From positions 1 through 23,844 of the IMG/VR virus record IMGVR_UViG_3300020053_000552: 23,844 nucleotides of DNA, one strand, 5' to 3'. Both the position numbers and the translations under genes were made by a program. This document shows positions 1 through 18,274 of the stretch, one piece after another. The stretch is from a virus. The stretch's first letter is position 1. Each line of letters starts with the position of its first letter. The notes beneath the pieces are model-generated. The model worked only from the letters and a program-made list of their open reading frames with translations. It was not told the origin of the DNA and did no database searches.

Positions 1-1398
1 ATTTAACAGCATAGGGCATCCTGTTTCTTCATACCAACGTTCTAACAGTTTTCTAAAGCCCACGCTTTGATTTGCAGAAACTGTCTGTACCCGAGAGGTG
101 CCGTCCCCGTGGACGATTGCAGGTAGTCCAGGATCTGTGCAAGTTGCAGTGTATTGCATAAAGGGGCTGACATATCCGTCGAAATAGGTAGACGCATGTT
201 CCTCCAATACTGCTGGTGCAAATGGTCTAAACTTCTGTCTTTGCTTAATGGTGTTAACTCTATCTTTGATATCGGTTCCGCGGGGGTCTGCAAGGAGGGA
301 GCGATTACCAAAGGCTCTGGGTCCAAACTCAGCACGGCCGCTGGCAACACCACAAATACCAGTAGTAAGCAACTCATGTAATACTTCTTCAACTGGATAT
401 TCTCCTTCTATGTTGTACCCTGTGTACATATGTGGCATAGGCATGTGTTGTTTTTTGTGTGCTAGTACACACCCTATAGCACTGCCTGCATCACCCGGGT
501 TGGGCATTATATACATATCGTTCCAATCGCTCTTGATGCTGCCATTGGCACTACAGTTTAGCGCACACCCTCCCATCAATACTAGGTTACCCGATGGAGA
601 TTTCCACCTAGCCCAGTTGCTGATATACTTGAGTAGGTACGAATAAACCGCTTGGGTAGCAGCAGCTATGTCAAACATATCCTGTTCAGTGGTAAGGTCT
701 GGTCTCCACCAGCTACACCCTCGGTGCAAGTTGTGCTTGAGCTTAATAGTAGGCTTGTTGAAAAACATCTGTTTGAAGCTATCGTGGTCAATAGGGTGAA
801 AAAATTCGTGTAGTATTTCGTTGAAGAACCTTAGGGGGTCTCCATACGCTGCCATACCCATGAGGATGTATTCGTCTTCCTGTGGCTTTAGTCCCAGTCT
901 TTGTGTGAACGCTGAGTACCATAGTCCCACGGAGTGTGGATACGTTTGTCTATAGATACGTTTGAGTCCTGTTTCTTTGTCAGCGTTCCAGATAGTGAGT
1001 GTATCAAACTCTCCAATACTGTCAATACAAACAACAGTGGCTTCTGTAAAAGGACTAGTATAAAACCCGGCAGCAGCATGGGCAAGGTGATGATCAGTAT
1101 ACCGAATAGGAGCATGTATCCCATAAGATCCAAGGTAACGACTAATATTGTTTTCACCCAACCGAAGTCCTTGACCTGCTCTAAACTGTCTAAGAGTTTT
1201 GAGACCAGGTCTCTCGTACCAAATAACTTCATTAGGCTCTCCCCATTGTCTTGCATAGTTAACTATCTCTTTATTGAGATGTGCATCGTTCTTAACACCA
1301 CTAAAGCGTTCACTGTGACTAGCAAACTCTAACCCGTCATCTGTAAACACTGCTAGTGCTGCGTCATGACTATTAGCACTGATACCCCAAGTAATCAT
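1..1398 (-). CDS. Carbamoyltransferase, NodU/TobZ family (C-terminus cut by window edge)
   Basis: An open frame of 466 codons starts at ATG 1398 and runs off the window without a stop. It is read as one continuous protein beginning MITWGISANSHDAAL. Family landmarks appear in order: an N-terminal Kae1/ASKHA-like domain with DHHLAHAA near residues 100-107, GGCALNCSANG and PNPGDAGSAIG in the middle, and EFGPRAFGNRSLLADPR in the C-terminal YrdC-like part. Known members transfer a carbamoyl group from carbamoyl phosphate, through carbamoyl-adenylate, to a hydroxyl on a sugar or antibiotic. Full-length members have roughly 550-600 residues, so about the last 100 are missing here. The start overlaps the nucleosidase stop as ATGA, which implies translational coupling. 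The acceptor is unknown; a phage- or host-made sugar is plausible given the glycan genes elsewhere in the window. Family call is firm, substrate is not. Confidence 0.93.
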   Translation of the reverse strand, partial: MITWGISANSHDAALAVFTDDGLEFASHSERFSGVKNDAHLNKEIVNYARQWGEPNEVIWYERPGLKTLRQFRAGQGLRLGENNISRYLGSYGIHAPIRYTDHHLAHAAAGFYTSPFTEATVVCIDSIGEFDTLTIWNADKETGLKRIYRQTYPHSVGLWYSAFTQRLGLKPQEDEYILMGMAAYGDPLRFFNEILHEFFHPIDHDSFKQMFFNKPTIKLKHNLHRGCSWWRPDLTTEQDMFDIAAATQAVYSYLLKYISNWARWKSPSGNLVLMGGCALNCSANGSIKSDWNDMYIMPNPGDAGSAIGCVLAHKKQHMPMPHMYTGYNIEGEYPVEEVLHELLTTGICGVASGRAEFGPRAFGNRSLLADPRGTDIKDRVNTIKQRQKFRPFAPAVLEEHASTYFDGYVSPFMQYTATCTDPGLPAIVHGDGTSRVQTVSANQSVGFRKLLERWYEETGCPMLLN

Positions 1399-1961
1399 AG
1401 TAGCTGCAATACCTCTTGTACGCCATTGGCTACATTCTTTTGCCAAGTATCTGCTTGGTGTGGTGTGCCTACATAATCAGTTATATATTTATAACAAGTA
1501 AACTGTACATTCATACGTTTGCATACAAGTGCAATAGCATAGGCTTCCATATCAACTACATCTATTTTATTGTCCAACAACCAACGTCCGAGTTCATGTA
1601 CAAACTGATCTCCTGTTCCTAGTGTTAGACTAGGAGTCATATCGGGCGAAAAATCCAAGTACGGCAAGCCTGCTTCAAACGGAGTAACACCTCTTGGTGC
1701 TTGTGGTTCGGCATTCATATCACGCTGTACAAACTTGGTAATACGGTGTATGCCTTTTAACTCCGCTTGACAGCTTCCAACTGTGCCATAGTTGTATACT
1801 TCAGGATGAAATCCTAAACTGTGTGCTTCTGCAATAGCTTGTGTGGCTGCAAATGCTGCATTTACTTTGCCTACACCTGTGTACACTACTTTGTAATCGT
1901 TGGGTGCAAGTTTGTAAGGCAGTTCTGCTTCAAGTGCTACTAATAATATACGATATCTCAT
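1395..1961 (-). CDS. MTA/SAH nucleosidase-like nucleoside phosphorylase family protein
   Basis: A 188-residue protein of the PNP/UDP phosphorylase fold. TGVGKVNAA near residue 28 matches the family GxGxxNAA turn. NYGTVGSC near residue 57 matches the GTAG-like phosphate/ribose strand. VVDMEAYAIA near residue 135 matches the VDMEgaAia ribose-binding motif, and the downstream ITDYVG matches the SD catalytic-Asp segment. Bacterial MtnN is about 230 residues, so this is a compact version. The family hydrolyses 5'-methylthioadenosine or S-adenosylhomocysteine, by-products of SAM chemistry; this fits a phage with several methyltransferase-like genes, but the substrate cannot be read from the sequence. 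It starts inside the stop of the 40-residue gene and ends inside the start of the carbamoyltransferase, both as ATGA. Confidence 0.8.
   Translation of the reverse strand: MRYRILLVALEAELPYKLAPNDYKVVYTGVGKVNAAFAATQAIAEAHSLGFHPEVYNYGTVGSCQAELKGIHRITKFVQRDMNAEPQAPRGVTPFEAGLPYLDFSPDMTPSLTLGTGDQFVHELGRWLLDNKIDVVDMEAYAIALVCKRMNVQFTCYKYITDYVGTPHQADTWQKNVANGVQEVLQLL
1486..1493 (-). promoter_or_regulatory. Exact T4-type late promoter motif TATAAATA inside the nucleosidase gene
   Basis: The minus strand reads TATAAATA, identical to the T4 late promoter core. It lies 88 bases upstream of the carbamoyltransferase ATG and is spelled by the Tyr-Lys-Tyr codons before the ITDY motif. It could drive late expression of the carbamoyltransferase. 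An 8-base AT-rich motif can also arise by chance in such a genome. Confidence 0.25.
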
Positions 1962-2080
1962 TTGTAAATAAACGGGTCCTTCTTGCGTAGTTCTTTCAAA
2001 CGTTTTCTAAAACGTATTTCTTCTTTGATACGTGTGTAAGGCCATATGATAATGTCCCGAATCCTTTTTAGGTAAACCAT
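1958..2080 (-). CDS. Small basic conserved phage protein, 40 residues
   Basis: A short gene between primase and the nucleosidase, starting at ATG 2080 and ending at TGA 1958. The product begins MVYLKRIRDIIIWPYTRIKE and ends KKDPFIYK. About a third of residues are Lys or Arg, and the centre looks like a charged helix. Its start overlaps the primase 3' end by 13 bases and its stop overlaps the nucleosidase start as ATGA, so it fills the gap with no spare bases. That tiling is the main evidence that it is real. From memory, similar small basic proteins ending DPFIY occur in other marine T4-like phages. Function unknown; the charge would suit nucleic-acid or protein contact. Confidence 0.7.
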   Translation of the reverse strand: MVYLKRIRDIIIWPYTRIKEEIRFRKRLKELRKKDPFIYK

Positions 2081-3048
2081 TTTTTTGCTCTCAATCTAAT
2101 CTTTAATGTGCTGCTTTCGGCAGCACTGGCAATACTGTATAATGTATATAGTCTTCCATAACGTTGTACAGCATCGCCAATGTCGTTTATGTCCATATCC
2201 CAGTTAGGCAAACTTACTTGCCATCCTAGTTCAATAGCTTGTTCAACTAGTTTGCTGCCTGCTTTATCTCGATCAGGAACTACAATAACATCTTTATTTA
2301 ATCTATTAATCAGCAATGCTTGTGCATCATTGATTTCACTGCCGCCTAATGCACACCCGTCAACGTGTAGTGCATCCACTTGTCCTTCACAAACAATAGC
2401 AAACACTTTGTTGTAGCCTTGTTCGTCTAATCCATAAACAAATCCAGGCTGTACTTCCATAAGATACTTGGGCTTCTTGTCTGCTGCGATAGTTCTAGCA
2501 GTCCATCCTACAATACGTTTTTCATAGTAGAATGGAATAATAAGTCTATCACGATATGCTAGACTAGGGCTCCAATAGTAATCAGTATCATCTAAGTTTA
2601 GATTACGTGTAGCCATATATTCAAGTATAGCCATACTAAACTTGTTAAACTCTGTAATGTCTGCAATCTTAACTGCGTCTGGCGGCAATGGTACAGTTTC
2701 AAATGTAGGCAGCTCTATCTTACGCTCTGCTACTTCAACGCCTTCGTTTATACGCATCACATCAAACGTTAGCTTCGTTATTGTATCATCACTACAACCA
2801 AGCCATTGTAGTAGCTTACGTAGCTTGTGCGACACCGGTCTGCCTGGTTGCCAGCTTGCTTTGTATCCACAGTTAAAGCAGTGATAGCTAACAGTATCGC
2901 CTTCAGAGATAAGTCCGCCACGCCCACGTTTGTCTGCACTATCGCCATTGTGATGACAGCAAGGTGCATTGAAGCTGGTCCAACCACTAGGTGTAGTTTT
3001 ACGCTTTCCAGGCAAGTGTGCTGTGATTGTGTCGGATACAATACTCAT
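2068..3048 (-). CDS. 61: T4 gp61-type DNA primase
   Basis: A 326-residue DnaG-superfamily primase. The N-terminal zinc-binding region carries Cys30, Cys31, His33 and, 24 residues on, HCFNC (Cys57, Cys60). The TOPRIM-like core follows: an acidic strand at IVCEGQVDALHVDG near residue 220 and VIVVPDRDKAG near residue 257 match the metal-binding Glu and DxD of this fold. In T4, gp61 works with helicase gp41 to lay RNA primers for lagging-strand synthesis; gp41 is not in this window. Length is close to T4 gp61 (about 340). The upstream gap is only 34 bases and holds a consensus sigma70-like promoter. No Shine-Dalgarno precedes ATG 3048, and the predicted RNA start falls at or next to this ATG. Confidence 0.92.
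   Translation of the reverse strand: MSIVSDTITAHLPGKRKTTPSGWTSFNAPCCHHNGDSADKRGRGGLISEGDTVSYHCFNCGYKASWQPGRPVSHKLRKLLQWLGCSDDTITKLTFDVMRINEGVEVAERKIELPTFETVPLPPDAVKIADITEFNKFSMAILEYMATRNLNLDDTDYYWSPSLAYRDRLIIPFYYEKRIVGWTARTIAADKKPKYLMEVQPGFVYGLDEQGYNKVFAIVCEGQVDALHVDGCALGGSEINDAQALLINRLNKDVIVVPDRDKAGSKLVEQAIELGWQVSLPNWDMDINDIGDAVQRYGRLYTLYSIASAAESSTLKIRLRAKKWFT
2108..2126 (-). other. GC-rich hairpin in the 3' end of the primase gene
   Basis: Seven-base perfect arms (GTGCTGC and GCAGCAC) flank a five-base loop, CGAAA on the minus strand. It sits 28 bases upstream of the start of the 40-residue gene. No U-tract follows, so it is not a standard terminator. It could affect translation or processing of the downstream RNA, or simply reflect the Ala-Ala-Glu-Ser-Ser coding. 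Confidence 0.3.
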
Positions 3049-3054
3049 ACTATT

Positions 3055-3082
3055 ATTATAGCATCAGTATCCAGATTGTCAA
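3055..3082 (-). promoter_or_regulatory. Consensus sigma70-type promoter for primase and downstream genes
   Basis: On the minus strand a perfect TTGACA (3077-3082) and a perfect TATAAT (3055-3060) are separated by 16 bases. They lie in the 34-base gap between the structural gene and primase. T4-like phages use host sigma70 for early genes, so an early promoter here is expected. The -10 box ends 6 bases before the primase ATG, which places the RNA start at about position 3048. Confidence 0.75.
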
Positions 3083-4072
3083 TCAGTTTCTAACAAGTAT
3101 TTTTGATATCTTATCTGTTGGATCTGTTTCGGTATAAAAACGCAAGTGACTAAACACACCGTTGAAGTTTACAGGAGTTGGTTCTGTTTCAGTTCCGTCT
3201 AGTGTTACTGTAGTAATATTTGCCCATGTTGTATTCAATGTTACTTGATTTTCCAATGTACCCTGTACTACAATATCTCCAGCAAACTCATTTGTGTATA
3301 ATGCTGCTGTATGCAATGCAATGTTGCCATTAAGTCCTGGCTGTGCATCCAAACTTTCAGTACTCCAATCAGTTGGTGATTTTTGATCGCTTACAAAACC
3401 AGTTATGCTGTAAGTATCTAATGGGCCTGGAAATGCAAACCCATCGATAAACATAGTTCCTTTTGCTTCAAAATGTGCTTCGCTGTATGTTAGTGTTTTG
3501 GCGCCTGTAGTATCTACAAGATAGATTGCATATTTGGTATACTGTTGTTTTAGATTTAATAAATCGTTTTCAGTTACATTTACAGTAAATACGCCTTTTT
3601 GTGTATTTGTTTGAAATGTAATACTAGTACCAGCTGGAACAGCAGCAGAAGAACTTTTGTTTAGTGTTACTGTATTTCCTGCTATTGCACTTACTAAAGT
3701 ATTACGTTTGATATACGTTCCTGTAACAGTTTGACCAACTGCAATGCCACTTGTACTACTAAATTCAAGTGTTGTATCTGCTGCACTTTCAGCTGCGGTT
3801 GTAGTTTTAGATACTACATCATCTAATACGGTTCCATCATGTTCAACAACTAGGTTATTATTTTCATCAAACATCATAAACTTGGGGGTGTATCCTTGTA
3901 GGCTAACTGGTTTTTGATCATGATTTTTAACTTCAAAATGTAGTAAGTTGTCTATACCTCGATAAACGTTTAGGGTTTTTTGATACACTGGTCTATACTC
4001 CGTTATGAATCCTGCCAGATTGGCAACGATGGTAACTTGGTTCTTTGCTAAATATCTATAAGTTTTCTGCAT
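3083..4072 (-). CDS. Putative virion structural protein (tail, fibre or baseplate type)
   Basis: A 329-residue protein rich in Thr, Ser, Val and Asn and poor in Cys, with a beta-strand-rich appearance. The first 70 residues (around VYRGIDNLLHFEVKNHDQKP, then FMMFDENNNLVV) resemble the N-terminal domain found in phage baseplate and adhesion proteins. Residues from about 105 (GIAVGQTVTGTYI, then NTVTLN and TSITF) match a beta motif common in marine phage structural proteins. The last 100 residues contain further Thr/Asn-rich strands. ATG 4072 has an AAAGGT ribosome site five bases upstream, and a near match to the T4 late promoter lies 24 bases upstream of the start. No catalytic motif is visible. 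A structural role is likely; the exact virion part is not known. Confidence 0.65.
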   Translation of the reverse strand: MQKTYRYLAKNQVTIVANLAGFITEYRPVYQKTLNVYRGIDNLLHFEVKNHDQKPVSLQGYTPKFMMFDENNNLVVEHDGTVLDDVVSKTTTAAESAADTTLEFSSTSGIAVGQTVTGTYIKRNTLVSAIAGNTVTLNKSSSAAVPAGTSITFQTNTQKGVFTVNVTENDLLNLKQQYTKYAIYLVDTTGAKTLTYSEAHFEAKGTMFIDGFAFPGPLDTYSITGFVSDQKSPTDWSTESLDAQPGLNGNIALHTAALYTNEFAGDIVVQGTLENQVTLNTTWANITTVTLDGTETEPTPVNFNGVFSHLRFYTETDPTDKISKILVRN

Positions 4073-4095
4073 CGGCGGGACCTTTTTTATATAAG

Positions 4096-4103
4096 TATTT
4101 ATG
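4096..4103 (-). promoter_or_regulatory. T4-late-promoter-like motif CATAAATA upstream of the structural gene
   Basis: Seven of eight bases match TATAAATA on the minus strand. The site lies in the 33-base gap between divergent genes, 24 bases before ATG 4072, a normal distance for a late promoter with a short leader. A structural gene would be expected to be late. Confidence 0.4.
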
Positions 4104-4105
4104 GT

Positions 4106-4477
4106 ATGTTATTAAAAGATATAGAACAAAAATTTCCTTTTCTAAGTGTAGTAGCATACGGCGGCAATGAATATGTAGGAATCATTGTTAATCAAGATGT
4201 AACAGTAACAACTATGTATCTATACACCAAACTTAAAACGTCTGCACATAAAGAGCTATTAATCGAACTTGGTGAAATATGGTGGTGGGAGTCGAATAGG
4301 ATGATTCCTATTAATATTTTCTTACGTAAAGAAATACAAGATATTAGCTATAGTTTAATGACCATGAATACCAAAGATGTTAAGGTTATTGTTGGCCCGT
4401 GTGTTAATCTAAACAATCTAACTATAAAACGTATTAAACGCAAAAGCGTTCAAGTTATGCGGAAGCCTGCTCGTTAA
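4106..4477 (+). CDS. Conserved marine phage protein of unknown function, 123 residues
   Basis: A plus-strand gene set among minus-strand neighbours. The product starts MLLKDIEQKFPFLSVVAYGG and contains GEIWWWESNRMIPINIFL near residue 77. It ends in a very basic tail (KRIKRKSVQVMRKPAR). The first half reads as alternating beta strands. From memory, proteins with this WWWESNR segment recur in T4-like cyanophages and pelagiphages, but I know of no assigned function. A basic C-terminus would fit RNA, DNA or protein binding. The 5' end is 33 bases from the divergent structural gene. The 3' end overlaps the convergent DnaE-like gene by 23 bases, so antisense overlap or transcript collision is possible. 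Confidence 0.8.
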   Translation: MLLKDIEQKFPFLSVVAYGGNEYVGIIVNQDVTVTTMYLYTKLKTSAHKELLIELGEIWWWESNRMIPINIFLRKEIQDISYSLMTMNTKDVKVIVGPCVNLNNLTIKRIKRKSVQVMRKPAR

Positions 4478-5027
4478 GTTGTTCGCATACTAAATTCATA
4501 TGCACAACACACGCCGCAGCATAACTAACAGCATGTGCTTTCTTAAAGAAGTAACTTCCGTCAGTGGGTGCGACCCACACACTTTCTAATATCGTTGTCC
4601 AAGTTTCGTTGACAAGATGGCGTTTGGCAGGCCGAATCATCGCTAACACTGCTGCTAATTGTTCTACGCTTTGTGGCTTTGTTTTGCGTAGGATTTCCCC
4701 ATGTCCGGAGATATGAAAGATAAGATTTGTGAAATCGTCGTGTTGTAAAAGACTCCATTCGGGTTCCTTGTTCATTAGTGTTGTTAAATGATCTTCGTCT
4801 TTGATATTGTTGTAAATGTTTACATTCAAAAAGTCAAGTTTGAAATAGCCTCTATCTTCTGCTGTCTTGTAATCAATAGTACTCAAGTTATCAATAGGAT
4901 TATGCGGACACTCGGTTACATACACACCAGTGTTGTGCTTCTTTCCTGTATCAAGTTTTGCCACACGGTGTTGTATCTTAGATAAGATAACACTGCGATC
5001 AGCAAAGTCGATGTCAATATCCGGCAT
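4455..5027 (-). CDS. Miniature DnaE-like protein (DNA polymerase III alpha palm/fingers remnant)
   Basis: A 190-residue protein that follows the order of motifs in bacterial DnaE at a fraction of its length (DnaE is about 1,160 residues). MPDIDIDFADR at residues 1-11 matches the PDxDxDF palm motif with two catalytic Asp. FKLDFLNV (Asp65) matches KFDFLGL with the third catalytic Asp. SVEQLAAVLAMIRPAKR matches the IALFRPGP segment, and YFFKKAHAVSYAA (159-171) matches GYGFNKSHSAAYA. The PHP, tau-binding and OB domains are absent, as is most of the fingers. T4-like phages replicate with a family B polymerase, so this is unlikely to be the replicase. It might be a small nucleotidyltransferase or a non-catalytic partner. 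It shares a TAATG junction with the upstream nucleotidyltransferase. The relationship is convincing; the activity is unknown. Confidence 0.7.
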   Translation of the reverse strand: MPDIDIDFADRSVILSKIQHRVAKLDTGKKHNTGVYVTECPHNPIDNLSTIDYKTAEDRGYFKLDFLNVNIYNNIKDEDHLTTLMNKEPEWSLLQHDDFTNLIFHISGHGEILRKTKPQSVEQLAAVLAMIRPAKRHLVNETWTTILESVWVAPTDGSYFFKKAHAVSYAAACVVHMNLVCEQLNEQASA

Positions 5028-5416
5028 TAGAGTTTACCTTCTTCTCTCATTTGTTTTCTTATTTTAGTAGCACTAATATCGTGTATGTCTTTGCCCAAGT
5101 CATGTTCGGTAAATGAATATCCTACACTGCGTCCATAACTAATATCTACAATGTTTGGTACTTTTGCTATTTCGTATTCTTTGTGCAATGTATATCCAAC
5201 TTGTTTTAATCCTGTAATAATATTGTTTCTAACTACATAGTAATCAAATGGATTGTCATCTTGGCCAGGTCCTGCATCCTCACCTTGAACATCTCTGCAC
5301 ATAATAATAACTTGACCAGTTTTTTCCATTGCACGTTTGAATAGTTCAGTGTGACCATCGTGCCAGGGTTGCCATCGTCCTAGCATTTGTGTGGTTGGCT
5401 TCTTCCAATCAAACAT
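5027..5416 (-). CDS. HIGH-superfamily nucleotidyltransferase (cytidylyltransferase-like)
   Basis: A 129-residue protein with both signatures of the HxGH nucleotidyltransferase fold: GRWQPWHDGH at residues 13-22 (HDGH in place of HxGH) and ISATKIR at 114-120 (the ISxTxxR nucleotide-binding motif). The family includes NMN, pantetheine-phosphate and sugar/alcohol-phosphate nucleotidyltransferases. The GRxQPxHxGH form resembles NMN adenylyltransferase-like proteins, but the length and middle region do not settle the substrate. The gene starts inside the end of the APS-kinase-like gene (8-base overlap) and abuts the DnaE-like gene. The close pairing with a small-molecule kinase suggests consecutive steps: phosphorylation, then activation with a nucleotide. 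Confidence 0.8.
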   Translation of the reverse strand: MFDWKKPTTQMLGRWQPWHDGHTELFKRAMEKTGQVIIMCRDVQGEDAGPGQDDNPFDYYVVRNNIITGLKQVGYTLHKEYEIAKVPNIVDISYGRSVGYSFTEHDLGKDIHDISATKIRKQMREEGKL

Positions 5417-5840
5417 TTTTCTCTCTCCATTGCTGATATCTTTTTACAGCAAGCATTAATGTATTATGAGTATCTGTAAACCATTCACTAACACGATAGT
5501 CTACAACATCCGGTGTTTCGAATATTGCATTTGTATCTTCGTAACGGCCTTCTTTGATAGTATCCATCCACACAGTAAAGTCTGCATCAAACTTTTTACG
5601 AGTTTCTTCAGTAGGACACACAAAGTCACATACAGCAACCCTTCCAGCAGATACAACGCCATCTGCAATCATACTCATACGAAATGCCTGGCGTTCTCTA
5701 CCTTCTTTGCTAAAATCCCAGTCTTTGTATTTTTCTCTAACAACATCTGCATTGATATGTACGCCGCCGATTAGTTCTGCAAATGGTTTTGCCAATGTTG
5801 ATTTACCACTGCCTGGTAATCCAAATATTAATATTTTCAT
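5409..5840 (-). CDS. Adenylylsulfate-kinase-like P-loop kinase
   Basis: A 143-residue P-loop kinase with Walker A GLPGSGKST at residues 7-15. INADVVREKYKDWDFSKEGR near residues 29-48 matches the APS kinase DGDxxR...lgFsxexR region, and YEDTNAIFETPD near residue 98 resembles the C-terminal YEPP-type segment of CysC. Bacterial CysC is about 200 residues, so this is short. CysC phosphorylates adenylylsulfate to PAPS. Phage homologues may instead phosphorylate another small molecule, and the overlapping nucleotidyltransferase supports a sugar or cofactor pathway over sulfate assimilation. The start overlaps the zinc-finger gene stop as ATGA. Confidence 0.75.
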   Translation of the reverse strand: MKILIFGLPGSGKSTLAKPFAELIGGVHINADVVREKYKDWDFSKEGRERQAFRMSMIADGVVSAGRVAVCDFVCPTEETRKKFDADFTVWMDTIKEGRYEDTNAIFETPDVVDYRVSEWFTDTHNTLMLAVKRYQQWREKNV

Positions 5841-6517
5841 AACTTAGCTTCTTTCACAACCTGTCTTACTAGATCAACATCATTTGGGTTGCGTTTAAAT
5901 CTCATTGCCCAGTGTCCTGGCTCTAGTACTGTACCTAACATAGTTAACTGTTCGTCATTAAAGTTATTTAGTGCAGCTTTGCCTGTTTTACAATTTAGTA
6001 CCAGCCATGGAGATATTTTTCCATCTCTAATATCCCAAGTAATTCTATTTGTACTTGCGTGTTCAAAGTAATGATTGTACAAACTACTATTTTCTTTTGC
6101 CCAGTTTACCATAGTATCAATACTACGTTCGAGAGCAGTTTGGACGCCTTCTTTGCGAATAAGTTCGTTGGCGTATTTTTCATACATTTCTTCTCTACAC
6201 CAATGATCAAGTTTTACATTACTAGTAACAACATAGTCAATGTACTTGTCAGGATACAGCGGTCTTACGTTGTTAACAAAACTTCCAAACTTAACAAATG
6301 CATTGTAGAAACTACTTTTAACAAACTCGTCATAGCTTTTTTCTTTTTTATTACCTGCACTTAACTTGTAAAATCTTTGAAATGCGTAAAATCCAATAGT
6401 TACTCGCTTTTCATCTTTTTGTAGCCAACGTCTTTTAGGCTCACACATATGGGCAATAAGAGTACTTTCTTTTGAATAACTTTTATTACAATATTCACAT
6501 GTATATTTAGATGTCAA
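5837..6517 (-). CDS. Zinc-finger phage protein, possible gp59-like helicase loader
   Basis: A 226-residue protein when started at TTG 6517. The frame stays open to ATG 6598, giving 253 residues, but that start lies deep inside the upstream gene and lacks a ribosome site. The TTG follows GGATACGAAAAAG and overlaps the upstream stop by only 11 bases. The N-terminus carries a C2HC zinc finger: Cys7, Cys10, His23, Cys25. The rest is helical and charged, with AFVKFGSFVNNVRPLYPDKY, DHWCREEMYEKYA and ISPWLVLN segments. From memory it resembles a conserved protein of marine T4-like phages. The helical pattern and the end region loosely recall T4 gp59, the gp41 helicase loader, but this comparison by eye is weak. 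It lies directly downstream of the probable gp62. Confidence 0.72.
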   Translation of the reverse strand: MTSKYTCEYCNKSYSKESTLIAHMCEPKRRWLQKDEKRVTIGFYAFQRFYKLSAGNKKEKSYDEFVKSSFYNAFVKFGSFVNNVRPLYPDKYIDYVVTSNVKLDHWCREEMYEKYANELIRKEGVQTALERSIDTMVNWAKENSSLYNHYFEHASTNRITWDIRDGKISPWLVLNCKTGKAALNNFNDEQLTMLGTVLEPGHWAMRFKRNPNDVDLVRQVVKEAKL

Positions 6518-6977
6518 CTTTTTCGTATCCGTGATCGTTTGCAAGTTGCTTGATTTCTTTTTTTGTAGATATTCTAGCAAGTGTTTCAACCTCATCAAGT
6601 TTCATATTAGGATATATTTGCGATAATAGTTTTACTTCTTTACTACTATCGTCTTTCTTTTTCTTGAGTCCTATCCAAGGATGGAACTGTTGTTTTCCTG
6701 TATTACCTGCTACACACAACAACTGCCATTGCAGTTTGATATGATTGGTGCCACCTAGTACATTCCAGTTTTTGTTGTAGTATTCGTTGACTTTGAACAC
6801 TGCTAGTGCAGTTTTTTCATAGTTACCTTTAACACTACTAATATATCGATTGAGATTCCACAGGTCGCCTTTGATATCTTTTCTGCCAACATCACTAGCA
6901 GCATCGTATAACTCTTTCATGTTGTTATCGATTGCTGGTATTAATACTTTAAACAAGTCCAGTTCTTTATTTGGCAT
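6507..6977 (-). CDS. 62: Probable clamp-loader small subunit, gp62-like
   Basis: A 156-residue protein starting at ATG 6977 (MPNKELDLFKVLIPAIDNN). The frame extends 17 codons further upstream through the 56-residue gene, but those codons read as Lys/Arg/Gln-rich shadow and were excluded. The order of features matches T4 gp62: a hydrophobic helix with KLQWQLLCVAGNTGKQQFHPW near residue 81, comparable to gp62 HFNYLMAAVPRGKRYGKW, then VKLLSQIYPNMKLDEVETLA near residue 117, comparable to IIKLLAKRYQVNTNDAI. In T4, one gp62 joins four gp44 subunits to load the gp45 clamp. Neither gp44 nor gp45 is in the window, which weakens the call. T4 gp62 is 187 residues. Confidence 0.55.
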   Translation of the reverse strand: MPNKELDLFKVLIPAIDNNMKELYDAASDVGRKDIKGDLWNLNRYISSVKGNYEKTALAVFKVNEYYNKNWNVLGGTNHIKLQWQLLCVAGNTGKQQFHPWIGLKKKKDDSSKEVKLLSQIYPNMKLDEVETLARISTKKEIKQLANDHGYEKVDI

Positions 6978-7137
6978 CCGCTGGTTTCTTTTCTGCTGGT
7001 TTCTTTTTCTTGCCCCAAGTGTATACAATATCGTCTTGTTCAGTTTTTGCTCCAGGAGGGCATACTTCTACTTTGTTTCCCTTGGATAACCATTCATCTA
7101 TTGCTGCTTGATCGCTTTTAGTTATTTCGTATCTCAT
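6967..7137 (-). CDS. Small conserved phage protein, 56 residues
   Basis: A short gene starting at ATG 7137 and ending at TAA 6967, filling the space between kdsB and the gp62-like gene. The product begins MRYEITKSDQAAIDEWLSKG, continues VEVCPPGAKTEQDDIVYTWG, and ends in a Lys/Ala/Pro-rich basic tail. Its start overlaps the kdsB 3' end by 20 bases and its stop overlaps the next start by 11 bases, which supports it as a coupled real gene. From memory, similar short proteins of the form tKsDq..IdeWlakGn with a lysine-rich end occur in other marine T4-like phages. No function is known. Confidence 0.72.
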   Translation of the reverse strand: MRYEITKSDQAAIDEWLSKGNKVEVCPPGAKTEQDDIVYTWGKKKKPAEKKPADAK

Positions 7138-7798
7138 TTTTAATGTGCCAATCTTTTAGATCTTGGGGTGAATTTATTTCAATGCCATCAAACTCAACTT
7201 CAACAACACCAATCCTAATACTATTTTGTATCCAACGCAGTTGCTCAAGTTGTTCTAATGTTTCTTCTGTATACTTGGTGCTTGCATTGTACATTGCCTT
7301 TACTTCTCTGTTGTATCCGTAAATACCTAAGTGATGATCTCCGTATGGCAAACTAGCTCTTAAGAACCAATGTGCCCTACCTCTATTATGTATCATTTTA
7401 ACACAGTTTGGATCACTTCGCAAGTTAAAATCCATTGTAGTATATGCAGTTGCTACATCGCTGCGTTGTAGTTCTGCTTCAACTGCACGAATGATATCTT
7501 CTGTAATATCAGGCATGTCGCCTTGTACATTTATGTAACGATCGTATTCTAATACTTTGTCGATTACTTGCATACAACGTTCGGTGCCGTTTTCCGCTTC
7601 TGTGGTCCAAAGACATTTAGTTGCACCAAGATAATTATATACCGTTTGATCGTCGGTTAGCACATATGTGTCTAATCCTGTAGCAGCACATTTGTTGTAA
7701 ATGTGTTCTATCATAGGCACACCGTTTAACGGTGCCATAACCTTGCCAGGAAATCTTGTACTAGCGTATCTAGCAGGTATTAATATTGCTGTGGTCAT
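7118..7798 (-). CDS. kdsB: 3-deoxy-manno-octulosonate cytidylyltransferase (CMP-Kdo synthetase)
   Basis: A 226-residue GT-A-like nucleotidyltransferase starting at ATG 7798, which overlaps the kdsA stop as ATGA. A TTG 12 bases upstream is also in frame but less likely. ILIPARYASTRFPGKVMAPL at residues 5-24 is the CTP-binding signature of KdsB. Further landmarks are VLTDDQ, TEAENGTERC (family form sxsGTeR), YINVQGDMPDI (VNvQGDEPxi) with metal-binding Asp, and HLGIYGYNREV (HiGiYaYrr). Bacterial KdsB is about 245-250 residues. It joins CTP and Kdo to make CMP-Kdo, the donor for Kdo transferases. Being coupled to kdsA confirms a Kdo pathway rather than another CMP-sugar. GDMPDI replaces GDEPLI, so one active-site Glu is Met here. 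Confidence 0.92.
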   Translation of the reverse strand: MTTAILIPARYASTRFPGKVMAPLNGVPMIEHIYNKCAATGLDTYVLTDDQTVYNYLGATKCLWTTEAENGTERCMQVIDKVLEYDRYINVQGDMPDITEDIIRAVEAELQRSDVATAYTTMDFNLRSDPNCVKMIHNRGRAHWFLRASLPYGDHHLGIYGYNREVKAMYNASTKYTEETLEQLEQLRWIQNSIRIGVVEVEFDGIEINSPQDLKDWHIKNEIRNN

Positions 7799-8586
7799 AG
7801 CCAACTCCATCCTCTAGCAGCATCGCTGATTACTTTAATCTGCTTTACTGTATCTTCAAAGTCTTCTAGTCGTAACATATTAGGACCGTCACTAGGCGCA
7901 TTGTCTGGGTCGGCATGTACTTCTAAGAAGAAGTTGCTAATGCCCATAGCAGCGGCAGCACGAGCAAGACCTGGGACGTAATCACGATTACCGCCAGACG
8001 ATTCACCGGCCCCTCCAGGTTTTTGTACTGAGTGCGTTGCGTCAAATACGATCGGAACGCTAAAGTTATCAAGCATGTACTGCATACCATTAAAATCGAC
8101 CACAAGATTGTTATATCCAAAGCTAGTTCCTCTTTCTGTTATCCATACTTCTTTAGCACCTTCTGTTTTTGAAAGGATACCTTTTACGTCCCACGGTGCA
8201 AGAAACTGTCCTTTTTTGATATTTACAACTTTGTCTGTAGCACAGGCTGCTTGTATTAGATCAGTTTGTCTACATAAGAATGCAGGAATCTGTAGTACAT
8301 CGATTGCATCATCAAACTCGTCTCTAATAGTATGCACTTGGCGCACATCGTGTACATCTGTGAGAGTTTTTACTCCAAGTGTTTTTTTGATTTCACGAAA
8401 GTCAAACAGTGTTGCGTACAGTCCTTGTCCGCGTTCGCCGTTTGCACTTGTACGGTTAGCTTTGTCGTAACTAGCCTTGAAGATATATTCTATGCCGTAC
8501 TTGTCGCATACACGCTTGCATTCTTTAGCAATCTCTGCTGATTGTGCTAGTGTCTCGTGCTGGCATGGTCCTGCGATAATTCTCAT
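7795..8586 (-). CDS. kdsA: 3-deoxy-8-phosphooctulonate synthase (Kdo-8-phosphate synthase)
   Basis: A 263-residue TIM-barrel enzyme condensing phosphoenolpyruvate with arabinose 5-phosphate to Kdo 8-phosphate. Diagnostic segments in order are AGPCQHE (Cys8), FKASYDKANRTS, TDVHDV, IPAFLCRQTDL, KKGQFLAPWDVKG, ERGTSFGYNNLV, FDATHSVQKPGG, and LEVHADPDNAPSDGPNML. Cys in AGPC, His in ATHS, Glu in LEVH and Asp in SDGP match the four metal ligands of the metal-dependent class (Aquifex type). The E. coli metal-free class has Asn at the Cys position. Length is close to the family norm (about 265-285). It is coupled by ATGA overlaps to both neighbours. KdsD and KdsC are not in the window, so host enzymes or other phage genes must supply arabinose 5-phosphate and remove the phosphate. 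Confidence 0.96.
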   Translation of the reverse strand: MRIIAGPCQHETLAQSAEIAKECKRVCDKYGIEYIFKASYDKANRTSANGERGQGLYATLFDFREIKKTLGVKTLTDVHDVRQVHTIRDEFDDAIDVLQIPAFLCRQTDLIQAACATDKVVNIKKGQFLAPWDVKGILSKTEGAKEVWITERGTSFGYNNLVVDFNGMQYMLDNFSVPIVFDATHSVQKPGGAGESSGGNRDYVPGLARAAAAMGISNFFLEVHADPDNAPSDGPNMLRLEDFEDTVKQIKVISDAARGWSWL

Positions 8587-8858
8587 ACTTGATCCTTATT
8601 ACTATCCTTAACAGTATAGTACATTACAAGCAATCTGTCAAGTTGTTTCTTTAATGCAGGATTAGAATCAGCTGTAAGATGCATATCTTGCCATTCACTC
8701 CAACTAAACATATCTCCAGTTGCTCTACTAACAGCATCTGGGTCGCCGCCAACTATCCATCTTGCTATTTCATTGAGTGGAGGATCTCTATAGCGGGCAT
8801 ACAAAACACCGTTTGCCCGCTCATAGATTAACGCTTGTCCCGGAATCAACTTAGCCAA
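8583..8858 (-). CDS. Conserved phage protein of unknown function, 91 residues
   Basis: The product begins MAKLIPGQALIYERANGVLY and reads as a soluble small protein with a charged C-terminus (TVKDSNKDQV). The start is a TTG at 8858, two bases after the membrane-protein stop, with GGA about nine bases upstream. The stop overlaps the kdsA start as ATGA. From memory, a family beginning MAKLIPG with IYERxxGVxYAR occurs in marine T4-like phages. I do not know its function. No Cys cluster, membrane segment or catalytic motif is visible. Confidence 0.72.
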   Translation of the reverse strand: MAKLIPGQALIYERANGVLYARYRDPPLNEIARWIVGGDPDAVSRATGDMFSWSEWQDMHLTADSNPALKKQLDRLLVMYYTVKDSNKDQV

Positions 8859-8860
8859 GA

Positions 8861-9109
8861 TTACTTGTCCATTAACTCTGCTTTGCGCTTCTCGATAGCT
8901 GCAAGGCGTTGAGCTTCTGCTTCAATGTCAGCAGAATCTTTTTCTGATTTTGCTGTTCCGTCGCGACCCATAACTACCAAAATGATTGCTGTGATCAACG
9001 GTGAGATGAGTAGTGCAACTACAAACCAAAGCCATCCATTGCGTCCCCAGTTGTTAGCCCAATAGCCTACTAGTGCTGAAAACACTACTGCCATTAAAAT
9101 AATATCCAT
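8861..9109 (-). CDS. Small membrane protein, 82 residues, two predicted membrane segments
   Basis: Residues about 2-19 and 26-47 are hydrophobic and joined by a short NNWGRNG turn. The remainder is a soluble, charged helical tail (KSEKDSADIEAEAQRLAAIEK within it) likely to form a coiled coil. The second segment, LWFVVALLISPLITAIILVV, resembles small bacterial and phage inner-membrane proteins of unknown role. The ribosome site is AAAGGAAAGAAG directly upstream of ATG 9109, within the end of the cupin gene. It might act at the host inner membrane, for example on superinfection or envelope state, but nothing in the sequence proves this. Confidence 0.7.
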   Translation of the reverse strand: MDIILMAVVFSALVGYWANNWGRNGWLWFVVALLISPLITAIILVVMGRDGTAKSEKDSADIEAEAQRLAAIEKRKAELMDK

Positions 9110-9110
9110 T

Positions 9111-9473
9111 TTACTTCTTTCCTTTTACTTCGGTGCCGCTAGTACGACGAACAATGTCATCGTGATTAAATTCAGCCCAGTACAGTTCAAAAGCGACACC
9201 GTCTTCTAGTCCTTCGAACTGATGAATTTTACCGGGCTTGACTTGTGTAAAGTCGCCTGCGTTTAGAATAGTTTCATCAACTAAGCCTTGATCATCTTGC
9301 CACACACGAACAATCATCTGTCCTGACTCTACATAAAAGCCATTCCATTTAAATCTATGTTCGTGCTCCGAACATTTGTAACCTTTGTTGAATTCAATAC
9401 GATGAAACTCTAGTACACCGTTTGCATGGATCAACTCTGTGTTGCCCCAAATCTTTCCTGCTTTTATTCCCAT
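9111..9473 (-). CDS. Single-domain cupin protein
   Basis: A 120-residue beta-barrel protein with both cupin motifs. Motif 1 covers KGYKCSEHEHRFKWNGFYVESG (about residues 30-51), with His37, His39 and a Glu as candidate metal ligands. Motif 2 is PGKIHQFEGLEDG (about residues 81-93), with His85 as the last ligand. Small cupins of this type act as sugar-phosphate isomerases, epimerases or dioxygenases. The pattern HxH...E...H suggests bound metal and activity. The start shares a TAATG junction with the upstream oxygenase-like gene. A second, different cupin domain is fused to the nucleotidyltransferase at 17502-18266. Substrate unknown. Confidence 0.82.
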   Translation of the reverse strand: MGIKAGKIWGNTELIHANGVLEFHRIEFNKGYKCSEHEHRFKWNGFYVESGQMIVRVWQDDQGLVDETILNAGDFTQVKPGKIHQFEGLEDGVAFELYWAEFNHDDIVRRTSGTEVKGKK

Positions 9474-10072
9474 TATGCTATATACTCCTTTAATATTTCT
9501 ATTGCCTCGTGCCAGCTAACATATTGTTCTGTTTCAATATCCCAAACTGGTTGAAAGCATACTGTCCATCGTGGCTGGTTTCCTGGATTAAGTGTACCAT
9601 GCAATACACCTGTATTTACAATACTAGGTTTATTTGTATTAGCTCTATGCAATACTGTACAATCTTTTGGTGATGCTGTTAATACTGTAATTTCATCATT
9701 GTATATTATGCTTTCGTCGCCTTTTGTATTTACACCAGGCTTAACTGTATATTCAAAAGTTTTATCTGCTTTGTACCATATTATTTCGCCATCTTCAGGT
9801 CCCCACGTTTGATTTATCTTTACAAATTCAGTTTCGTAATGATAAAAGTCTGTATGTATTGGTACCTTGCCGCCGTTTGGCGGAGTATAAAAACATTCAA
9901 TCATCAACAACTTCATATCAAACTGTGCTAAGAAATCTACCATATTTTGATCGTAGTGATTGGGCAAATGCTGTTGCATTACAGTTTTTTGATTAGTATC
10001 AAATAGATCTGGTTTTTTAATTTCAAAAGGAAGATCTATATATCTATGATATCTGTTATAAAAGTTTTCCAA
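9473..10072 (-). CDS. 2OG-Fe(II) oxygenase-like protein
   Basis: A 199-residue protein with the iron facial-triad pattern of 2-oxoglutarate oxygenases: PIHTDF with His73 and Asp75, then LHGTLN with His158, and RWTVCFQP with Arg168 as the likely 2-oxoglutarate anchor. Spacing between the first and last His (85 residues) suits the family. Start is TTG 10072, overlapping the upstream gene by 17 bases; the next in-frame ATG lies past residue 30. Marine T4-like phages often carry several such oxygenases, whose substrates (protein, nucleic acid or small molecules) are mostly unknown. Its coupling to a metal-type cupin may mean the two act together. Confidence 0.68.
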   Translation of the reverse strand: MENFYNRYHRYIDLPFEIKKPDLFDTNQKTVMQQHLPNHYDQNMVDFLAQFDMKLLMIECFYTPPNGGKVPIHTDFYHYETEFVKINQTWGPEDGEIIWYKADKTFEYTVKPGVNTKGDESIIYNDEITVLTASPKDCTVLHRANTNKPSIVNTGVLHGTLNPGNQPRWTVCFQPVWDIETEQYVSWHEAIEILKEYIA

Positions 10073-10562: not shown

Positions 10563-12031
10563 TTATTCCAATCTACTTTCTCAATTGTGAATGGATACTC
10601 TGCTTCTTTGTAAAACTTTTTACGCTGAGTTAGATGTCGCTTCGCAAACTTACACGTACTTGTAAGATCCCATATTTGTACGAAGTCTTTATCTTTTGCC
10701 TTTCTTACGCCTCTACCAATACTTTGTATAACACGCACGAAAGACTTACCAGGCTCAAGGAGAACAAGATTAAAAATACGTGGAATGTTAAGGCCGACGG
10801 CGGCGACTCCATACGTTGCGATAATGACTTCATTAGTTCCTTCGCGAATCGTGTCATATGTTTCCTTTCTGTCTTTGTTCTTAACAGCGCCGCTTATAAA
10901 TGTGCTGCCTGGTATCAGTTCTGCTAGTGCTTCACCTGCACTAATTCTATCTACTAGTATAAGTGTATTGCCTGAGTCTTTTACTGTATTTAATAGTTTG
11001 CCTATATATTCTAAACGTGCTGTATTTGTTGTTAAATATTTTAATTCTTCTTGGTAGCCTGCATGTGCTACTGTATCTATTAGTTGTACTACATTAACAT
11101 GACATTGTGATAATACACCTTTGTCTTGTAATTCTTTTGCACTAATATTGCCAATCACTGGACCAAGACTAGCGTGAATACTTTCGAACTCAAACTTCTC
11201 TTTAGGCACCGTGCCAGTTAGTCCCCAACGTATGGGTGCATTACGTAGGTTGCGAGTAAGCAAGTTCTTAAGAACTTCTGCTTTGGCTTGGTGTACTTCG
11301 TCGACAATAATAGTGCTTACACCTTCTAAGAATTCGGCCAGTGATAACACTGCGCTTCCGTCCTTATGCTTCTTGTCTAGAATATTCAAACTCTGCCAAG
11401 TGCATATAGTGTGAGTCTTACCTAAGTTCTTCCTGTCTCCGAAGTACACCCCTACATCGAGACCGCAGTTAATATAGTCCTCTTCTGTTTGTTCTACTAA
11501 GCTCTTGTTAGGAACAATCACAAGACTTCTACCATACGGCTCAGTTATGTGTGACAGCGTTGCTGTAGTAATAGTTTTACCTGCACCAGTAGCAATCTGT
11601 TGCAAGCTCTGTGGATTGTTTAAAAAGTTGTTGATTGCCTCAACTTGATAATCTCGAAGAATAATGTCTTCGCCTTCTGCAGGATGACCTTCCGGCCATT
11701 GTACGCCTTGGTCTGCCCAATAACTTTCTGTTACTGGAGTAAAGTTTAACTGTATTGGATGTCGTCTGTCTTCAATGTCTACAATCTGTACACGATTTTT
11801 AGAGAGCACTTCTTGTACAACATCAAGATGATTAACATAACCAGTGCCGCCAATACCAAAAAAAGCAACCTTGCCGTCCCAACGTCCGAGTTTGTATTGT
11901 GGCATGTGTTTTGCATATGGTACTTCAAACTTTAGTGCATTAGACAGTTTGCGTCTAACGTCTACATCAAGTCCTTCTATCTTAATGTTTACTTCATCTT
12001 CGATTATCAGTTTACAACTTGCCACTGGCAT
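10559..12031 (-). CDS. uvsW: UvsW-type recombination DNA/RNA-DNA helicase
   Basis: A 490-residue superfamily 2 helicase from ATG 12031. An in-frame TTG nine bases further upstream has a better-spaced TAGGT ribosome site, so it may be the real start. The N-terminal 100 residues form the UvsW substrate-binding domain (YKLGRWDGKVAFF). RecA-like domain 1 carries the Q-motif region LRDYQ, Walker A ATGAGKT, DEVH as motif II, and GLTGTVP as motif III. Domain 2 carries ATYGVAAVGLNIP (motif V) and QSIGRGVRK (motif VI). In T4, UvsW branch-migrates recombination intermediates and removes R-loops, ending origin-dependent replication. Length matches T4 UvsW (about 500). Its start overlaps the 389-residue gene, and its stop is coupled to the next gene. 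Confidence 0.95.
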   Translation of the reverse strand: MPVASCKLIIEDEVNIKIEGLDVDVRRKLSNALKFEVPYAKHMPQYKLGRWDGKVAFFGIGGTGYVNHLDVVQEVLSKNRVQIVDIEDRRHPIQLNFTPVTESYWADQGVQWPEGHPAEGEDIILRDYQVEAINNFLNNPQSLQQIATGAGKTITTATLSHITEPYGRSLVIVPNKSLVEQTEEDYINCGLDVGVYFGDRKNLGKTHTICTWQSLNILDKKHKDGSAVLSLAEFLEGVSTIIVDEVHQAKAEVLKNLLTRNLRNAPIRWGLTGTVPKEKFEFESIHASLGPVIGNISAKELQDKGVLSQCHVNVVQLIDTVAHAGYQEELKYLTTNTARLEYIGKLLNTVKDSGNTLILVDRISAGEALAELIPGSTFISGAVKNKDRKETYDTIREGTNEVIIATYGVAAVGLNIPRIFNLVLLEPGKSFVRVIQSIGRGVRKAKDKDFVQIWDLTSTCKFAKRHLTQRKKFYKEAEYPFTIEKVDWNK

Positions 12032-13181
12032 AACTCCCAAAAAGACCTACATGATTATCATTATATATAATGCAGTCGCAGTTTATATCTACATAATACT
12101 TTACATTACTACGTGAGCGTATGCTAGATTTACTTAAACAACAAATAGGTAAAAAACTAGAACTCAATAAAGTCTTAGGTAGTTTGTTCTTTTTAATATA
12201 TACTATTTTTGTGTTGTTGTCAACCCAATTATTTAACTTTTGATTTTTTACATATGCATTTAACTCTAAGTTTTTTGTATCACTTGAATCTACTCTAAAC
12301 ATAACCGATTGCAAACTACTATCAACATATGGTAAAAATGCTTGATGAGCTTCAATAAGTTGTTGATGACAATCATCTTCATCAACTGTAACAATCAACG
12401 GAAACCGATTGAGTACATTAATACTATTTGCAATATCACTCATTGTCCATGTTTGAGGGTCTGCTGGTACAGACGAACTTGTTCTATAAGCAATCATTTC
12501 AGTTAAGTCTAGAGAATCAATGTTATCATTTGAATAGCCGTATCTTAATGAACGATCAGCTTGTTGTAAAGGTGTTAGACTTTTTATGTATTCGCGTTCT
12601 GTTGTATCCATTCTGTTTAATACATTTTCAAATGACGAACTATACTTTGATTTATCATCTAATATATTTTTAACTTTGTTAACATATTCAACTATTATTT
12701 CATCAGTTTTAAAACTACGTTCTTCTAATGCGCTGAGTATTTTAAACGCATTAGTTGGTGTTAGTTTATAAAAGTGTTCGTGCGATCCGCGAACATGAAA
12801 ATATTCTCGATTTGGTATATTTAAACTTTGTATTTTTACTATATCTTTTTTATTAAACGGAAATCTCACCTTGATCCATGTAGAATCTTTCGACGATGGT
12901 TTGAACCGTGGTCGACCAGGAATACTTTCTCCATCAATAATAATAATATATTTTTCTCTATTAACAGATCTCAACGGCATACGTGTTGGTAAATCTTCTA
13001 TAGAAATATTATCCAACTCTGATTCAAATGGTTTTAGCTTTTCTAAAACCAATGCATATTGTCTATCAGTTAATGCAACATCTTTTTGTGTTTGTTGACA
13101 TATACTTTCTAAAATAGCACGAGCAGGCGTTTCTATGTTAACTTCGTATAATAGTTTATGGAGTACATTTTCTAAGTTCAT
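12012..13181 (-). CDS. Large conserved phage protein of unknown function, 389 residues
   Basis: I do not recognise a characterised family. The N-terminal 60 residues look helical (DRQYALVLEKLKPFE), followed by NREKYIIIIDGESIPGRPRF near residue 75 and EYFHVRGSHEHFYKLTPTNA near residue 123. A central charged segment leads to a region around LIVTVDEDDCHQQLIEAHQA near residue 261. The last 90 residues contain IVYIKKNKLPK and end VKYYVDINCDCIIYNDNHV plus a short tail. It sits just upstream of uvsW, overlapping its start by 20 bases, so a role in replication or recombination is a reasonable guess. The strand pattern near the end recalls part of a P-loop or nuclease fold, but no Walker motif is present. 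The gene is more AT-rich than uvsW. Confidence 0.75.
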   Translation of the reverse strand: MNLENVLHKLLYEVNIETPARAILESICQQTQKDVALTDRQYALVLEKLKPFESELDNISIEDLPTRMPLRSVNREKYIIIIDGESIPGRPRFKPSSKDSTWIKVRFPFNKKDIVKIQSLNIPNREYFHVRGSHEHFYKLTPTNAFKILSALEERSFKTDEIIVEYVNKVKNILDDKSKYSSSFENVLNRMDTTEREYIKSLTPLQQADRSLRYGYSNDNIDSLDLTEMIAYRTSSSVPADPQTWTMSDIANSINVLNRFPLIVTVDEDDCHQQLIEAHQAFLPYVDSSLQSVMFRVDSSDTKNLELNAYVKNQKLNNWVDNNTKIVYIKKNKLPKTLLSSSFLPICCLSKSSIRSRSNVKYYVDINCDCIIYNDNHVGLFGSYASGKL

Positions 13182-13198
13182 ACAAACAATATAACATA

Positions 13199-14044
13199 TT
13201 ACAACCTACTAGTCAAGTTTTTCAGTGACAATCCTTGAGATATTTCATCAAGAGTATATTCGGTGTGAGCATAATCATTTAGCCATTGCTTACGGTTTGG
13301 CCTCCTTGGATGTTCTATATTTTTAAAATCAGTGTTTGAAACATCATACGCAAGACTGCTTGGCCCAGAAAATACTGGTATGCCAGCTAGTATAGCCAAT
13401 GGCCCGGGATTACTACTCCAACTTACAACAGCGTGAACTTTGTTAAATGATAGATTATAATCATCATACGTATTCAATAGTTTTTGAGGCTGATCTCTAT
13501 AAACATTTTTATACTGTCTTTCAATGTCCGGCAACGGGCATCTTGGATGTGGTCGAAAAACTATAGGCATATCAGTATATGTTTGTATTTCATCTATAGT
13601 ATTCATCACCCAGTTACTCATACGTGGCATGCCTTGCCACTGTAGGCTTTTATCATGTTGCCCGCATATTAGTATATACTCGCCGTTGTCTCGCCACGGC
13701 TTTAGAGATAGACCGAGTAGACAACAGCGATCACTGTTATTACTATTAGGCCCAAAGTAAGCATCTCTATTGATGCCATTTAGTCCCACCTTCCATGTTG
13801 TTCCTCGATTGATTCCACCCACTTCCAATACGATTGTTGGTTTGCCGGTCTGTTGATTTTCATTCCAAATACGTGCGTTAGGAGCCATCCTACCGTGAAA
13901 TAATACACTCCATATAACATCAATGCCATTATTACTAGCATTATCGCTACAAGTGTGCCCAAGTGCATTAGCACCTTGTCTAAAAGCATCGAAAACAGGG
14001 GTTGAATTTTGTGCGCCATATTGTGTCCATAAATTAAAGTTCAT
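13199..14044 (-). CDS. GT-B-like glycosyltransferase, possible CMP-sugar (Kdo) transferase, copy A
   Basis: A 281-residue protein starting at ATG 14044, with AGGA nine bases upstream. A TTG ten codons earlier is in frame but unlikely. The C-terminal half carries IVFRPHPRC (His166-Pro167) and AVVSWSSNPGPLAILAGIPV (Ser residues 208-211). These match the HP and Ser motifs known in sialyl- and beta-Kdo-transferases of GT-B fold, such as polysialyltransferases and KpsC/KpsS. The N-terminal half is a weaker Rossmann-like domain. Two related proteins (14891-15820 and 15807-16619) share the layout, including the ending IEHPRRPNRKQWLND. With KdsA and KdsB encoded in this window, CMP-Kdo is a sensible donor, but this is inference. 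Family members are often larger. Confidence 0.65.
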   Translation of the reverse strand: MNFNLWTQYGAQNSTPVFDAFRQGANALGHTCSDNASNNGIDVIWSVLFHGRMAPNARIWNENQQTGKPTIVLEVGGINRGTTWKVGLNGINRDAYFGPNSNNSDRCCLLGLSLKPWRDNGEYILICGQHDKSLQWQGMPRMSNWVMNTIDEIQTYTDMPIVFRPHPRCPLPDIERQYKNVYRDQPQKLLNTYDDYNLSFNKVHAVVSWSSNPGPLAILAGIPVFSGPSSLAYDVSNTDFKNIEHPRRPNRKQWLNDYAHTEYTLDEISQGLSLKNLTSRL

Positions 14045-14073: not shown

Positions 14074-14084
14074 AGGATTAGCCC

Positions 14085-18266: not shown

Positions 18267-18274
18267 AATAGTAC

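Follow-up and report, generated by a model that had tools for sequence, protein, structure and literature searches.

The stretch of DNA analyzed here, which we call the window, is the 23,844-base record of a marine virus that infects bacteria, and positions refer to it unless another record is named. Recognizable genes for UvsX-like and UvsY-like proteins, a UvsW-like helicase (UvsW being our own reading of a DNA-helicase family), a primase and virion proteins identify the virus as a T4-like phage. The DNA primase gene (2068..3048, minus strand) encodes a TOPRIM-type protein of 326 aa (PHROG 47, E 9.8e-38; Pfam Toprim_2 above the cut-off) and follows, on the same strand, a gene for a virion structural protein (3083..4072; PHROG 14467, head and packaging, E 1.6e-14), from which it is separated by 34 nt (3049-3082). 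Read directly on the minus strand from 3082 to 3046, the gap and start codon have the layout TTGACA-16-TATAAT-6-ATG. The -35 hexamer TTGACA (3077..3082) abuts the stop codon TGA of the structural gene (3085-3083); it is followed by a 16-nt spacer with TG before the -10, as in extended -10 promoters (3061..3076), the -10 hexamer TATAAT (3055..3060), the 6-nt discriminator AATAGT with T at -1 (3049..3054) and the primase ATG (3048-3046). A sequence-only reading had noted a perfect promoter of this kind in the 34-base gap, with a -10 box ending six bases before the ATG at 3048 and no Shine-Dalgarno (SD) sequence, and direct inspection of the strand bears out both points. Elsewhere in the window, translations at 1-1446, 7118-8586 and 13199-21863 read as sugar-, KDO- and glycosyltransferase-like genes.

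The site agrees with a sigma70-type promoter at 12 of 12 hexamer positions, and its spacer of 16 lies within the allowed range of 15-18. The exact arrangement TTGACA-N15..18-TATAAT occurs once in the 23,844 bases, in the primase gap, where chance would give 0.03 per window; it was present in 3 of 100 dinucleotide shuffles. Looser promoter-like sites in window 1-20000 are not above chance (62 against a shuffle mean of 66.0). Thus, the hexamer pair by itself is modest evidence, and it is the exactness, position and conservation of the site that bear the argument. No SD precedes the primase ATG of the window, and the sole alternative in-frame start among codons 2-60 is a TTG at codon 12, which is also without an SD.

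Comparison of the gap among relatives had been proposed as a check on the sequence-only reading. We took the best 80 of at least 599 primase relatives (protein identity 55-90%) and compared all 80 upstream regions, which together with the window, and after removal of duplicates, gave 66 distinct loci. Allowing at most 3 mismatches and a distance of 4-8 nt from the -10 to the best in-frame ATG or GTG candidate, we find a promoter before the ATG in 66 of 66 of these loci, one of which (L012) counts a displaced ATG that an insert has cut off from the primase. Among the matches listed, the distance from the -10 to the ATG is nearly fixed, at 6 nt in 61 of 66 (5 in 2, 7 in 2 and 4 in 1); spacers of 17, 16 and 15 nt occur in 55, 10 and 1 loci, respectively; the -35 is TTGACA or TTGACT in 65; the -10 is TATAAT in 50; and the start codon is ATG in every one. 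As background, 41 of 5,318 internal ATGs satisfy the same limits on distance and mismatches, as do 29 of the 817 ATGs that come first in long ORFs. Merging loci that are at least 80% alike around the start leaves 38 groups, of which 33 have the 6-nt distance and 37 a pyrimidine at -1. In the 55 listed loci with a 17-nt spacer, the mean information per base is 1.84 bits in the -35 and 1.76 bits in the -10, against a nearly random 0.38 bits in the first 14 spacer positions, and therefore the conservation of the site does not merely reflect DNA similarity. TG precedes the -10 in 16 of these 55. We also considered a T4-type late or middle promoter and set it aside given the frequency of TATAAT and the presence of TTGAC at -35 in 65 of the 66 listed loci.

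In L012, an insert (L012:5786-6001) parts the promoter and about 14 first codons from the primase, such that the old ATG, next to the promoter, and the new primase ATG are separated by 215 nt. At the new ATG the sequence MSIVSD is restored with other codons, and GAGG precedes it with five bases between. The tail of the insert is weakly similar to HNH endonucleases (PHROG 2081, E 0.0036), and a Pfam search of the insert returned no match. We considered whether L012 is the sole exception to the layout and rejected this, as the promoter and first ATG are kept and the insert follows them.

To place the primase site among other promoters, we counted near-consensus promoters in front of ORFs that begin with ATG and span 60 codons or more in six long relatives (G001-G004, G006 and G007; 98-358 kb). 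The distance from the -10 to the ATG is 0-4 nt in 4 cases, 5-7 nt in 19, 8-17 nt in 5, 18-40 nt in 63 and 41-59 nt in 11, and the thin range of 8-17 nt is what would be expected if a start is either leaderless or leaves room for an SD. At exactly 6 nt there are 15 sites among 217 promoters, against 0 among 117 sites with reversed hexamers. When the window is added to the six relatives, an SD match of at least 4 nt precedes 62 of 70 leadered starts versus 5 of 20 short-distance starts, and the latter rate is close to the background of 18-23% at internal ATGs of the six relatives. Between positions 12258 and 22955 of G001 (L083 and L084), fifteen near-consensus promoters on one strand precede small ORFs with leaders that are nearly the same (AAGAACATAGGGCAAAC and similar), an arrangement resembling a repeated promoter cassette.

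The base before the primase ATG is a pyrimidine in 65 of the 66 distinct loci among the matches listed, and before leadered ATGs of the six long relatives in 29 of 69. Of the leadered promoters of these relatives, 70% have a pyrimidine at offset 6 from the -10 and about 79% have a purine at offset 7. After the repeated G001 cassette (15 copies) is dropped, 54 distinct leadered promoters remain, of which 32 have a pyrimidine-purine step at offsets 6/7 and 29 have one at offsets 8/9; since the two are about equally common, the initiator statistic does not single out one base. It is compatible with transcription from the A of the ATG without proving it, and the conserved -1 pyrimidine appears to be the better sign of such a start. 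With a start at offset 9, which is the G of the ATG, the RNA would lose its AUG. The distance and the -1 pyrimidine thus predict a transcription start at the A of the primase ATG (3048, minus strand), and the initiator pattern of the leadered promoters allows offset 7 or 9.

From the aligned sequences, we consider it highly probable that primase synthesis uses a leaderless mRNA whose first bases are the AUG of the gene. The host RNA polymerase and its main sigma factor would recognize TTGACA and TATAAT in the 34-nt gap, RNA synthesis would begin at the A of the primase ATG, and the mRNA would have the AUG as its 5′ end, with neither leader nor SD. This 5′-terminal AUG would then be bound by 70S ribosomes and initiator tRNA in the leaderless mode. 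With a promoter of its own, the primase would not depend on the structural gene that precedes it. The primase transcript may be early or middle in timing, the word early being prompted solely by the promoter type. One idea is that the phage gains independence from SD competition. RegB (PF10715) and RegA (PF01818), which were sought as a reason for SD avoidance, had no match in 10 records, nor in any control genome, and this search therefore has no bearing on SD avoidance.

The sequence-only reading had set beside the leaderless mRNA an alternative in which readthrough transcripts supply the primase and the promoter acts chiefly for the genes that follow. Such transcripts would come from the upstream structural gene, which does lie on the same strand, 34 nt away, and none of the 19 terminator-like sites found in a search of the window falls inside the gap. 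However, readthrough leaves the fixed distance, the -1 pyrimidine and the missing SD unexplained. In particular, the longest anti-SD match before the primase start is shorter than 4 nt in 63 of 66 distinct loci among the matches listed, versus the large majority of leadered starts that have such a match, and the L012 primase, which stands behind other DNA, has the GAGG before its ATG. We regard readthrough as a very unlikely source of the primase. A further alternative is that transcription begins 1-3 nt away from the A, which would produce an ultra-short leader or, if the displacement is downstream, an RNA without the full AUG. A start at position -2 is conceivable given that G is found there in 48% of the listed loci, distances of 4, 5 and 7 nt do occur, and the leadered step at 8/9 is about as frequent as that at 6/7, with the TG of the ATG fitting 8/9. 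Nevertheless, the base conserved in nearly all listed loci is the pyrimidine at -1, while -2 carries 0.27 bits, and a beginning on the G of the start codon would not account for that pyrimidine; a displaced start is in our view unlikely.

The sequence-only reading had also raised a conserved downstream start with a ribosome site, in which case the true start codon would lie behind that site and the annotated ATG would be part of a short leader. Among 65 listed loci, no such start is conserved, as 2 starts with an SD match of at least 4 nt were found within 45 codons. Furthermore, the second residue is serine in 62 of 66 listed primase loci, encoded by AGT or AGC, and the first codons look like protein under selection, so that this possibility seems to us close to negligible. 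The leaderless mRNA suggested by the sequence-only reading is therefore supported by the near-fixed 6-nt distance and by the lack of a conserved SD-bearing downstream start.

A second promoter in the window, TTGACT-17-TATATT-GTTTGT (13182..13216, minus strand, read directly), precedes the ATG at 13181 of a gene of 389 aa (12012..13181, minus strand) that lies before the UvsW-like helicase. This gene is conserved, has no assigned function and is predicted to be leaderless. The -35 lies within the upstream ORF, which ends at 13199, and thus part of its conservation may stem from coding. Among relatives of this gene (36 aligned, 32-75% identity to the window protein; L265, cut before or near the start, was left out), the layout is present in 48 of 53 distinct loci. 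All 48 have a pyrimidine at -1 and a 17-nt spacer, and the distance is 5 nt in 15, 6 nt in 32 and 7 nt in 1. SD matches of at least 4 nt occur in 14 of the 51 rows with the layout, which is about background, and L259, one of the five loci without it, has a 4-nt SD match. A 73-kb contig (G010) encodes the protein of the second gene at 100% identity and contains both window promoter sites letter for letter, plus a third before a gene of 166 aa that to us reads like a nucleotide kinase; a look-alike of the 166-aa gene in G007 likewise has a 6-nt site. For the second gene itself, Pfam gave no family above the cut-off, and a search of PDB folds with its model (pLDDT 88.9) gave no match at E<=0.001, the model having only a weak, partial resemblance to helicases. 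Its viral matches at E<=0.001 number four, and no function is named for any of them.

Other families present a more varied picture. Short-distance promoters are found in 26 of 75 distinct helicase loci and 13 of 47 distinct exonuclease loci, and both families are thus mixed. Under a stricter rule, SD matches precede 11 of 26 helicase genes with a short-distance promoter versus 23 of 45 without, and 1 of 10 exonuclease genes with one versus 21 of 34 without. Given that the rates are alike in the helicase and unlike in the exonuclease, an SD contrast exists, of these two, in the exonuclease only (L220 and L238 in the helicase family and L413 and L431 in the exonuclease family, cut before or near the start, were left out). 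In L182, L185, L188, L192 and L196, a promoter-like TTGAC...TGGTATAAT is located about 60 nt before position 1500, which we read as lying inside the 3′ coding end of the upstream gene and as followed by a short leader, an SD-like string and the helicase. In the family of PolIII-alpha fragments the layout fits 49 of 49 distinct loci, but we read the -35 as lying in upstream coding sequence and the -10 (TAAAAT or TAAACT) as holding a stop codon, and 20 of 48 have an SD match; we therefore do not count this family as strong support. Small separate genes like DNA-polymerase pieces are found at window 4455-5027 (minus strand; PHROG 11778) and at L095:4543-5061 (minus strand; PF07733, PolIII alpha), and these phages may have a split polymerase.

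We tentatively raise the possibility, which we hold to be rather doubtful, of a leaderless regulon in which replication and nucleotide genes are expressed from RNAs with a 5′ AUG and most other promoter-proximal genes are leadered with an SD. Such a regulon might comprise, in almost every locus examined, the primase and the gene preceding UvsW and, in some loci, the replicative helicase, a PD-(D/E)XK nuclease, the kinase-like gene and the PolIII-alpha fragment. If it exists, it could be translated when SD-led initiation is restricted by ribosome modification or host shut-off, which would add a translational switch between classes of genes to the timing set by promoters.

Among cultured relatives, 14 of 82 matching records were examined. 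The primase of PA5oct has TTGACA-17-TATAAT-6-GTG, this GTG being the second (record position 145890), and the annotation uses the earlier GTG; a site also stands 7 nt before the PA5oct exonuclease start annotated at 158242. In RAS14 the arrangement is TTGACG-18-TACAAT-7-ATG, with the ATG being the annotated start, and in XacN1 it is TATAAT-6-ATG, in frame and upstream of the annotated start, with a gap (CGGAGA) that is SD-like but too near the ATG to act as an SD. SCTP-2 has a weak possible site. A -10-like box and a leader with an SD-like string, at 24-32 nt, precede the primase in 121Q, RaK2, GAP32, CBB, Munch, XaC1 and Atu_ph07; in Vibrio 2.275.O the -10-like box is 55 nt upstream and is likewise followed by a leader and an SD-like string. 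The 10-nt gap of Phosso holds an SD-like AAGGA without a promoter, and the primase gap of S-N03 contains neither a promoter nor an SD-like string. Cultured phages are thus split between an abutting promoter and a leader with an SD-like string, and the primase gene occurs in two states.

Genome-wide, XacN1 (310 of 385 kb) repeats the split of promoter distances found in the six long relatives, with 9 promoters at 5-7 nt, all of them at 6 or 7, along with 1 at 8-17 nt and 38 at 18-40 nt. SD matches precede 0 of the 9 versus 29 of the 38, and C stands before the ATG in 8 of the 9. In an annotated 50-kb stretch of this genome, 4 of 5 pattern sites coincide with annotated CDS starts. PA5oct (260 of 287 kb) has ATG sites in numbers too few to tell, 3 at 0-4 nt, 1 at 5-7, 0 at 8-17 and 10 at 18-40, and shows no clear two-class pattern; one of its sites, at 216247, is not in the reading frame of the gene annotated at 216266. 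The matches to the pattern at 5-7 nt, found in 8 of the 14 cultured records, are partly due to chance. For PA5oct and XacN1, the annotated primase start codons differ from those predicted here, and these two phages and RAS14, being cultured, make a leaderless primase testable.

A leaderless start is a known but uncommon way to begin protein synthesis, and leaderless mRNAs are often seen as oddities in bacteria that use SD sequences. In the temperate phage lambda, the repressor gene cI is transcribed from PRM, where a sigma70 promoter places +1 on the A of the AUG and no SD is present; the gene considered here belongs to replication, and its layout recurs across many phages. In the literature, lambda cI is named as a leaderless mRNA, and such mRNAs are described as mostly binding 70S ribosomes directly, with a different dependence on IF2, IF3 and initiator tRNA (PMC9031893). 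According to a published criterion, a gene is most probably leaderless if a -10-like signal stands about 10 bp before its start, and Xanthomonadales are named among the gamma-proteobacteria with such genes (PMC3160421), which agrees with XacN1. The primase site resembles these TA-led bacterial genes in the position of its -10 box, about 10-12 bp before the start (TATAAT at -12 to -7 from the ATG), and in the lack of an SD, and it differs from the TA-led genes of bacterial and archaeal genomes in its near-consensus -35 and in being conserved at one orthologous phage gene (PMC3160421).

Among phages, the Thermus phage phiYS40 is reported to have leaderless middle and late mRNAs (PMC3594737). The likeness is that phage genes are carried on leaderless mRNAs; in phiYS40 these are most middle and late transcripts, whereas here they would be a subset of genes with near-consensus TTGACA and TATAAT, beside leadered genes that usually have an SD. 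In the giant phage AR9, whose transcription starts were mapped, phage transcripts are called 'often leaderless', but AR9's own leaders are 26-491 nt long and it has its own RNA polymerases (PMC5312081). Among the papers listed in full-text searches on leaderless mRNAs and on PA5oct, the primase arrangement is absent from the titles and abstract openings, and a 2026 jumbo-phage review contains neither words beginning with 'leader' nor 'untranslated'. Jumbo phages of the RaK2/121Q/GAP32 type have the same order, that is, a structural or hypothetical gene, a gap with a -10-like box, primase and helicase, but differ in that the -10 of 121Q, RaK2, GAP32, CBB, Munch and XaC1 lies farther upstream, as noted above, and the leader contains AAGG or GAGG. 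These relatives with a leader at the same gene offer a natural comparison of two start modes, in a wide phage group across which one replication gene seems leaderless beside leadered genes of the same genomes. Given that leaderless phage mRNAs and the sign of a -10 at the start were already known, the primase represents a new and well conserved instance.
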